From Pseudomonas resinovorans NBRC 106553 (GTDB lineage Bacteria; Pseudomonadota; Gammaproteobacteria; Pseudomonadales; Pseudomonadaceae), in the NCBI RefSeq assembly GCF_000412695.1, contig NC_021499.1, forward strand, positions 5,394,001 to 5,458,000: a DNA stretch of 64,000 nt, given 5' to 3'. Of the stretch, positions 36,682-50,773 are shown in pieces; the first letter of the stretch is position 1, and every line of letters begins with the position of its first letter. The position numbers and the translations under genes were made by a program. Below the pieces are notes generated by a model. That model searched no databases, had not been told where the DNA came from, and saw only the letters and a program-made list of their open reading frames with translations.

Positions 36682-38595
<1,914 letters not shown>

Positions 38596-38779
38596 ATCGT
38601 TCAATTAGCTACCCTCTGGAACGGGCCCCTTCCTGGAGCGCACCCCGCATGACTGCTGGTGATTAACCGGCCTAACTTACTACACAACCCCTGCCCCTGG
38701 CAGGCGCCGTCTGTAACCCTTTATGAGACCTCGCGGCCTCCTGCGCGAAGGAGACCGGCGAGTCAGGCTCCTGCCCAGT

Positions 38780-39108
38780 CTATTCCCCACGGAAGCCGCG
38801 TGCGAGCAGGTATTGCTCCCTGGAGCGGTCACGCGACGAAAGCGGCACACTTTGCCGAACGCCCGCCGGACCTGCCACGGTCGGCGTAGAACCCTTCGAC
38901 CGGATCTTTTCGATCAAAAAACAACCACATGGACGCAGCGCGCGGCTGGTCGGCGGCCCCACACGCCACTCATATTGGGGGCCATATCGAAAATCACAAG
39001 GTCCAGCCGCTAATTACCGAGTGCCTCGCCGTCCTTTTGCGCCGATTTGTCGCATGGATCATCGAAGTGTTCTTTCCGCCAACGCTGGCTAGTCTTGGAA
39101 CGAGCCAC
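38780..39108 (-). pseudogene. rlmE: Remnant of rlmE/ftsJ (23S rRNA 2'-O-methyltransferase)
   Basis: Between ftsH and yhbY, where Pseudomonas carries rlmE on this strand, only pieces remain. From 39108 the frame reads VARSKTSQRWRKEHFDDP, matching the RlmE N-terminus with GTG in place of ATG, then QKDG. An in-frame TAG follows at 39010-39012. From 39006 the same frame reads LDLVIFDMAPNMSGV, the core of motif IV. A frameshift then gives AADQPRA in another frame. From about 38925 a third part gives FLI and EGF pieces, ending PLSSRDRSREQYLLARGFRGE before the TAG at 38780. About 330 bp remain of an expected 620 bp. The SAM-binding motif I region is deleted, so it cannot be functional. Confidence 0.9.
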
Positions 39109-39184: not shown

Positions 39185-39499
39185 ATGGCGCTCTCACCGG
39201 AGCACAAGAAGCAATACAAATCTATCGGTCATCACCTGAAACCGGTATTGACGGTAGCCGAGAATGGCCTGACCGAAGGCGTGCTGGCCGAGCTCGAGCG
39301 TGCGCTCAACGACCACGAACTGATCAAAGTGCAGTTCCGCATCATCGAGCGTGATGATCGTCGCGCCCTGATCGAGGAACTCTGCTCCGCCGGCAACTGC
39401 GAACTGGTACAGATCATCGGCAAGATGGCGCTGGTCTACCGCCGCAACCCCAAGCCGAACCGCAACCTGTCCAATATCAGCCGCTTCAGCGGTCTCTGA
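39185..39499 (+). CDS. yhbY: YhbY-family RNA-binding protein
   Basis: A 104-residue CRM-domain protein linked to 50S subunit assembly. Begins MALSPEHKKQYKSIGHHLKP and has the GxxG-type loop VAENGLTEGVL and the VYRRNPKPN end. ATG 39185 lies 10 bp after AGGGG; the 46 in-frame residues upstream overlap the rlmE remnant and are not family-like. It is normally divergent to rlmE, and that arrangement survives here although rlmE itself is broken. Confidence 0.94.
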   Translation: MALSPEHKKQYKSIGHHLKPVLTVAENGLTEGVLAELERALNDHELIKVQFRIIERDDRRALIEELCSAGNCELVQIIGKMALVYRRNPKPNRNLSNISRFSGL

Positions 39500-39501
39500 G
39501 T

Positions 39502-39680
39502 CACGATCTGCTGCGCGTCTGAAAAACTGCGTTGAAAATGGCTTCGGAAAGCCGCTTGCGACTAACGTGCTTCAGCACGGCCCGGAGGGCGAGCGAAGTG
39601 AGTACTGCTCATTTACAACTCGTAAACTCCGCGTCCTCAGCCATTTCCGCCTGGTTTTTCCATAGCTCGCAAGATCGTGA
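39502..39680 (+). repeat. Dispersed element, copy 1 (with internal insertion)
   Basis: Starts TCACGATCTGCTGCGCG and ends AAGATCGTGA, so the ends are inverted copies of TCACGATCT. Shared core: AACTGCGTTGAAAA, GCTCATTTACAACTCGTAAACTCCGCG and CAGCCATTTCCGCC (each quoted short of full length). It carries about 55 bp (near 39550-39605) that the other two copies lack. It sits between the convergent yhbY and DUF4149 genes. Confidence 0.75.
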
Positions 39681-50020: not shown

Positions 50021-50120
50021 ATTCTCTCTCCCGAAACTTTGGATTCTCCGCGGCCTCATTTCACGGACCGCGGCAGCAAATAAACGCTTGATCTAACAGA
50101 TGGGGGCCCGAGCCCGGATT

Positions 50121-50690
50121 TCAAGCCTGCTCGTCGATCGACGGCGGCGTAACGCTGGGAGCCTTGCTGACCACCACCATGGCGGGACGGAGCAGGCGGC
50201 CATTGAGCAGGTAGCCCTTCTGGAACACTTTCAGCACGCTGCCCGGCTCGACATGGGTGCTTTCCTCCATGGCCATGGCCTGATGGTGCTCCGGATTGAA
50301 CGGCGCACCGTGCGGGTCCACGGCTTCCAGCTGGTAGCGCTTGAGGGTGTCGTGGAACAGCTTGAGCGTCAGCTCCATACCCTCACGCACCGGCTTGATG
50401 CTGTCGTCGGTGGCGCTGGTCAGCTCAAGGCCGCGCTCCAGGCTGTCGACTACCGGCAGCAGGTCATTGGCGAACTTCTCCAGCGCGAACTTGTGCGCCT
50501 TCTCCACATCCTGCTCCGCACGACGGCGGATGTTCTGCAGCTCGGCGGCAACACGCAGCGACTGATCCTGGGCCGCGGCCAACTGCTCTTCCAGCACTTG
50601 CACGCGAGTGGCAAGGTCTTCGCCGGATACGGCTTCGGCGGCGGAATTCGCTTCGGGGGTCTGGGTGTCCAGGGTCTGTTCGTCGGCCAT
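50121..50690 (-). CDS. grpE: Nucleotide exchange factor GrpE
   Basis: Releases ADP from DnaK. The 189-residue protein has an acidic N-terminus, a long coiled coil ([40 protein letters not shown]) and the C-terminal beta domain with [16 protein letters not shown] and [20 protein letters not shown] 50690 follows GAGGAGGAAG. The longer frame runs into the regulatory region. A heat-shock-type promoter lies about 55 bp upstream. Confidence 0.97.
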
Positions 50691-50743: not shown

Positions 50744-50773
50744 TATATGGGGCCGCAATTTGTCGGTTCAAGG
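50744..50773 (-). promoter_or_regulatory. Sigma-32 (heat-shock) promoter of grpE
   Basis: On the minus strand CTTGAAC, then 13 bp, then CCCCATATA, close to the sigma-32 consensus CTTGAAA-N11-16-CCCCATNT. It faces grpE-dnaK-dnaJ. Confidence 0.85.

Follow-up and report, generated by a model that had tools for sequence, protein, structure and literature searches.

The window, by which we mean the whole stretch of 64,000 nucleotides analyzed here, carries a decayed copy of the native rlmE gene between ftsH and the divergently oriented yhbY gene (Table 1). The remnant measures 329 nt, compared with 618 nt (stop counted) in intact relatives, and with the missing 47% or so of the gene the SAM motif and the first catalytic Lys have gone. 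Its landmarks are a GTG at 39108-39106, an in-frame TAG at 39012-39010, a piece, LDLVIFDMAPNMSG, that begins at 39006, and a piece, SSRDRSREQYLLARGFRGE, that runs to the stop at 38782-38780. In all of this the initial annotation, which had recognized a pseudogene lacking about half of its length from these pieces and their order, strand, and coordinates, was accurate. The remnant lies at the orthologous place, is homologous in sequence, and has a broken frame; since it aligns with the ten intact and also with the seven other broken rlmE copies found in the yhbY-ftsH interval across all 18 genus members compared, it is not a chance likeness. One further point was not borne out. The GTG start, described as a change, was ruled out as a lesion because all ten intact relatives in the genus also start with GTG. 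The deletions, for which sharing among sister strains had been proposed as a check, mostly differ among the broken copies, an exception being the near-identical G007 and G008.

Table 1. Features of the yhbY-rlmE-ftsH region and comparison sites (window coordinates)
Feature	Position	Strand	Remark
ftsH	36682..38595	-	intact, 637 aa
ftsH leader	38596..38779	-	largely conserved; variable stretch directly after the rlmE stop
Decayed native rlmE	38780..39108	-	longest stop-to-stop frame of the yhbY-ftsH interval, 77 aa
3' island of dead rlmE	38780..38846	-	well kept in the genus
Putative sigma-32-like promoter facing ftsH, CTTGTG-N14-CCCCAATA	38973..39000	-	in former catalytic-Asp codons of rlmE
yhbY/rlmE divergent region with first rlmE codons	39080..39184	.	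retained in dead copies
yhbY	39185..39499	+	intact, 104 aa, divergent
Full-consensus sigma-32 site just upstream of dnaK	50098..50125	-	comparison
Full-consensus sigma-32 site upstream of grpE	50745..50772	-	comparison

Decay has not been even along the gene. When broken copies were scored against the consensus of the intact genes, the windows over the motif DLVISDMAPNM retained identities of 0.79 to 0.88 in the four worst-preserved copies of the genus, against 0 to 0.35 over most of the gene body. The same holds in two other groups of the family, with motif windows of 0.67 to 0.79 against 0 to 0.5 over most of the body in g15 (five broken copies) and of 0.74 to 0.82 against 0 to 0.35 in g14 (three broken copies), where values near the 3' end rise to 0.60. 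Preservation within the genus extends to further parts, namely, the divergent region toward yhbY together with the opening codons of rlmE, the 3' island, and a large share of the ftsH leader. Retention of the divergent region presumably serves yhbY expression. The 3' island (identity of 0.76 to 0.92 in the four worst-preserved copies) is kept to a lower degree in g14 and g15, and we ruled it out as a general element. In the conserved leader we also noticed a hairpin-like sequence, CCTGCCAGGGGCAGG, at positions 38690 to 38704, and an adjoining block, TAAAGGGTTACAGACGGCG, that is nearly invariant across the genus. On the other side of the locus, 3' of yhbY, positions 39532 to 39665 contain ggcccggagggcgagcgaagtgagtactg, which resembles a repeat-type intergenic element.

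A search of the whole genome with the Pfam FtsJ model identified an intact but divergent RlmE gene encoding 206 aa on the same chromosome (C1:1457185-1457805), here termed X, and the earlier suggestion that RlmE had been lost is thus not upheld; the initial annotation had itself named a complete copy at another site as the finding that would speak against loss. X shares 60 to 62% identity with native-type RlmE. It scores above the cut-off of the NCBIfam equivalog NF008390 (296 versus 269 bits) and below that of the equivalog TIGR00438 (rrmJ; 262.3 versus 300.15 bits), and we therefore file it as RlmE-type with a reservation over the missed TIGR00438 cut-off. K-D-K-E catalytic motifs, at what we take to be their positions in RlmE, are present in all 13 X proteins of the genus, and the X genes are under purifying selection (dN/dS of 0.02 to 0.14 in seven pairs). 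We infer that X makes Um2552. Within the X genes (loci L009 to L021 and L035 to L092), synonymous constraint is highest over the first 10 or so codons.

The distribution of the two genes indicates that the situation in the window is a common one. X occurs in 13 of the 18 genomes of the genus, eight of which have a broken native rlmE (G000, G001, G005, G007, G008, G009, G013, and G017) and five of which have both copies intact (G006, G010, G011, G014, and G016); the other five are native only (G002, G003, G004, G012, and G015). Hence, each genome of the genus with a broken native copy also holds X. In G001 the native gene is freshly broken, with a 201-aa frame that keeps the SAM and APN motifs while RlmE homology stops at residue 158. 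A species tree built on 8,109 nt, several nodes of which are weak (support of 25 to 79), interleaves genomes with broken copies and genomes that keep the native gene, which we read as about six separate decays within the genus. The family search covered 148 genomes, 130 of them outside the genus. X, at 84 to 95% identity, was found in 27 of these 130, with a second match in G026, G031, and G107. One match each (E values of 1e-80 to 1e-91) was obtained in 101 others, those among the matches listed being of native type (60 to 65%), and two incomplete genomes gave a weak match only (G105, 85% complete) or none (G098, 82% complete). All 27 X-bearing genomes lack an intact native copy at the ftsH locus; the longest frame at these loci is 157 aa, compared with 218 aa in ten intact controls, and the SAM motif is absent from all of them. 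Absence of an intact native gene from this locus, a natural loss that had been called unusual, is therefore frequent: it applies to 8 of 18 genomes in the genus and to all 27 X-bearing genomes sampled elsewhere in the family.

Both copies were seen intact only in the five genomes named above, all of one genus. There, relaxed selection on the native gene beside an intact X was not seen (dN/dS of 0.038 to 0.098, versus 0.035 to 0.088 in native-only genomes; four pairs each), and in the pairs tested both copies are apparently under purifying selection. In P. oleovorans and Kushneria pakistanensis (L195 and L201), X occurs with a native rlmE whose homology jumps between frames and which is apparently freshly broken. 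No match to ftsH or yhbY was found near X in 80 X loci (flanks of up to 5 kb per side, some shorter).

X belongs to a block in which it follows genes for a SpoU methyltransferase and an FAD protein (L008:6568-9806; G000 C1, about 1454567-1457805). The block is sharply delimited by the stop codons of its two outer genes, has species-dependent neighbors, and contains no recombinase gene. The FAD-protein gene adjoins X in all 13 X-bearing members of the genus, and most Pseudomonadaceae examined have the genes arranged as SpoU-FAD-X, the FAD gene being missing there in the oleovorans/mendocina group. Among the native-only genomes of the genus, the FAD gene was found without X in G003, G012, and G015, which gave no convincing match to a trace of X, and was not found in G002 and G004. 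The SpoU protein has an MRM3-like substrate-binding domain (PF22435) and a SpoU domain (PF00588), both above cut-off, reaches none of the NCBIfam cut-offs, and has 7qiu as its best PDB match.

The piece LDLVIFDMAPNMSG of the remnant, an internal fragment that has survived well, contains CTTGTGATTTTCGATATGGCCCCCAATA (39000-38973), which is directed at ftsH and resembles a sigma-32 promoter. The available part of PMC4263515 gives the sigma-32 consensus as CTTGAA-N13-17-CCCCATNT (citing Yura 2000) and places two-thirds of E. coli sigma-32 promoters at most 100 bases from the start; the first base of the motif here lies 405 nt from the ftsH ATG, which is far for such a promoter. In dead loci the -35 element is CTTGTG or, mostly, CTTGTT, a match of 4/6 to CTTGAA in which CTTG is retained; the spacer is 14, and the -10 embedded in the gene matches CCCCATNT at 5/7 positions. 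The pattern CTTG-N14..17-CCCC was found in 8/8 broken loci and 10/10 intact loci of the genus and in 23/27 X-bearing loci from outside it. The opposite strand gave corresponding counts of 0/8, 2/10, and 1/27, and 40 rounds of dinucleotide shuffling gave means of 0.35, 0.70, and 1.00 for the 8, 10, and 27 loci. With a stricter pattern the forward counts were unchanged, the opposite strand gave zero, and the shuffle means were at most 0.03. When the broken loci are pooled, the motif is present in 31 of 35, against a shuffle mean of 1.35, counts that are not independent because G041 and G074 are near-identical and G007/G008 and G038/G125 share the motif stretch. The four loci that lack it, G054, G041, and G074 truly and G031 by one base, indicate that it is not indispensable. 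In the broken loci the CTTG-to-CCCC spacing is fixed while the letters of the spacer vary.

The same nucleotides are constrained while rlmE is alive. Among 40 intact native genes (10 from the genus and 30 from outside it), the five most constrained 9-codon windows at synonymous sites all span the motif, with a constraint of 0.38 to 0.45 compared with a mean of 0.125 (standard deviation, 0.084). The Leu codon of the motif is CTT in 39/40 genes, although CTT accounts for only 6.7% of their Leu codons elsewhere, and the remaining motif codons are similarly uniform (Ile ATT, 39/40; Pro CCC, 39/40; Asn AAT, 40/40). Of the 30 native-only genes from outside the genus, 27 contain the strict motif; a single C-to-A change accounts for two of the exceptions, and the third (g12) is without the -35 element. 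X genes encode the same protein motif but are not followed by ftsH, and in 66 distinct X genes its Leu codon is CTG in 60. Some of their motif codons are above expectation, yet none of their eight most constrained windows covers the motif, most of them being near the 5' end.

Once the gene is dead, the -10 element often changes. In the 31 broken loci that have the motif, a tally that includes the duplicates G007/G008 and G038/G125, it reads CCCCCATAT in 10, CCCCCCATAT in 2, CCCCAATAT in 10, TCCCCAATAT in 1, the unchanged CCCCCAATAT in 5, and another sequence in 3. The consensus -10, CCCCATAT, is thus a full match in 12/31, and 20 loci have forms that are one base shorter, a change that would put a coding gene out of frame. 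Slippage in the run of C residues may lie behind part of these changes, which consequently support the promoter reading rather than decide it.

The full-consensus sigma-32 pattern has three matches in the genome and none for a reversed control; two precede dnaK and grpE in the window, and the third sigma-32-like site lies at G000 C1:2377822-2377849. When a looser pattern was applied to 16 X-bearing genomes, several of which coincide with genomes already counted in the family survey, the motif was found in 10/10 Pseudomonadaceae, similar sites occurred in Cellvibrio and Simiduia, a doubtful one lay at -95 in Kushneria, and no site was found in Oceanospirillum or two Aliiglaciecola genomes. For P. 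aeruginosa, we take the locus tag PA4752 to denote ftsJ. A legend in PMC6629908 applies this tag to the divergent gene. According to excerpts of PMC9866376, an increase in RpoH in P. aeruginosa induces ftsH 3.0-fold, together with folP and glmM, the three being named the ftsH operon (PA4749-PA4751), and neither "ftsJ" nor "PA4752" occurs in the main text of that paper. These data fit a transcription start inside or after rlmE, which we regard as a hint only.

Taken together, the comparisons favor, with a probability of about 0.83, displacement of the native rlmE by X combined with retention of an rlmE-embedded sigma-32 promoter of ftsH. A complete, divergent RlmE at another chromosomal site would have made the native gene redundant, and it is the presence of this other copy that would account for the death of the native one, many times independently. 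Across the family, the part of rlmE that encodes the catalytic Asp and its surroundings (DLVISDMAPNM) probably doubles as the sigma-32 (RpoH) heat-shock promoter of the essential downstream ftsH; a dead rlmE would then rot while the promoter stays, which is probably why a short, recognizable RlmE fragment survives, and the retained promoter would often shift toward consensus because the reading frame is no longer limiting. On sequence grounds, what happened here is gene displacement and not loss of RlmE. Pseudogenization itself would be the ordinary consequence of a second RlmE, and what was unexpected is that its catalytic codons very probably overlap a promoter. A true loss, leaving an organism without RlmE and without Um2552, would explain the dead copy at the conserved locus, but an intact X with catalytic motifs, an NF008390 score above cut-off, and evidence of purifying selection makes it highly improbable. 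More improbable still is that the stop and the deletions are assembly or sequencing errors, given that about 290 nt are absent, substitutions are many, seven other genomes of the genus have parallel broken copies whose lesions are mostly different, and the chromosome carries a second, intact RlmE.

Of greater weight is the origin of X, which in our displacement scenario would have arrived by transfer. X could instead be a second rlmE that the order has had since ancient times, the native gene and X having been lost alternately, a reading that we consider possible but clearly the weaker one. X-like genes in Cellvibrio, Simiduia, Pseudohongiella, and Oceanospirillum would fit it, as would the widely shared SpoU-FAD-X order and the three native-only genomes that retain the FAD gene, but several observations speak against it: neighbors outside the block are seldom shared (22 and 26 singletons among 44 of the 58 loci L035 to L092), in the 15 loci compared homology to the block of this genome extends no more than 15 nt from the stop codons of SpoU and X before it is lost, and coexistence of two intact copies was seen in one genus only. 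Moreover, Kushneria has an X of 84 to 86% identity and an FAD protein of 87%, against 73% for FtsH, and its X is nested among those of Pseudomonas in a tree whose backbone support is not strong. It is also conceivable that the surviving island reflects chance slow decay or another constraint, such as an RNA structure or the site of another regulator. The further islands retained within the genus are in line with this; we nevertheless consider it unlikely, as the motif island alone is prominent in g14 and g15 too, its CTTG/CCCC spacing is fixed while the spacer letters are free, its -10 attains the sigma-32 consensus after gene death, and the ftsH leader/rlmE region gave no Rfam match at E values up to 1.

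If rlmE displacement has indeed left the ftsH promoter behind, it is a repeated natural experiment in which nucleotides that serve both as a catalytic motif and as a neighbor's promoter have had these two roles separated. The regulation of an essential gene can then limit the codon choice of an upstream gene and outlive that gene, and DNA annotated as a fragment of a pseudogene may still have a function. It would follow that, in Pseudomonas, a deletion or recoding of rlmE may upset the heat-shock response of ftsH and of the genes that follow it. In addition, the series from native only through both copies, both with one broken, and X only makes the replacement of a housekeeping gene traceable step by step. 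A search of the open-licence literature found no prior description of rlmE catalytic codons serving as an ftsH heat-shock promoter.

With regard to known systems, the site resembles sigma-32 (RpoH) promoters in its CTTG core, its spacer, and its C-rich -10, and ftsH is RpoH-induced in P. aeruginosa (excerpts of PMC9866376); it differs from them in being embedded in the upstream gene, where it overlaps catalytic codons, in its 4/6 match at -35, and in its 405-nt distance from the start. E. coli rlmE (RlmE/FtsJ/RrmJ, b3179, the Um2552 enzyme) has the same place and order between ftsH and yhbY as the native copy that is dead here, and the promoter letters CTTG...CCCC are absent from its motif; X shares the motifs of E. 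coli RlmE and passes NF008390, but it sits in another block. The SpoU protein of that block shares the MRM3-like domain, and its nearest structure, 7qiu, is listed in the accessible part of PMC12123411 as B. subtilis RlmP, which makes Gm2553, adjacent to Um2552; related enzymes of the RlmP/MRM3 type target Um2552, Gm2251, Am1067, and Um2479, and that part of the paper makes no mention of an RlmP-RlmE pairing in a roving block. As RlmP modifies the neighboring nucleotide, we tentatively speculate that a roving block of an RlmP-like SpoU protein, an FAD protein, and RlmE-X might place 2'-O-methyl groups on two neighboring A-loop nucleotides, as Um2552 and Gm2553, with an advantage great enough to displace the native rlmE time and again, in Pseudomonadaceae and outside the family, on each occasion leaving the ftsH heat-shock promoter hidden in the catalytic codons. 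The overall course matches xenologous gene displacement, a known concept, in that a divergent copy sits elsewhere and the native gene is dying, with several stages visible within one genus; what sets this case apart is that the dead gene would leave its neighbor's promoter behind.
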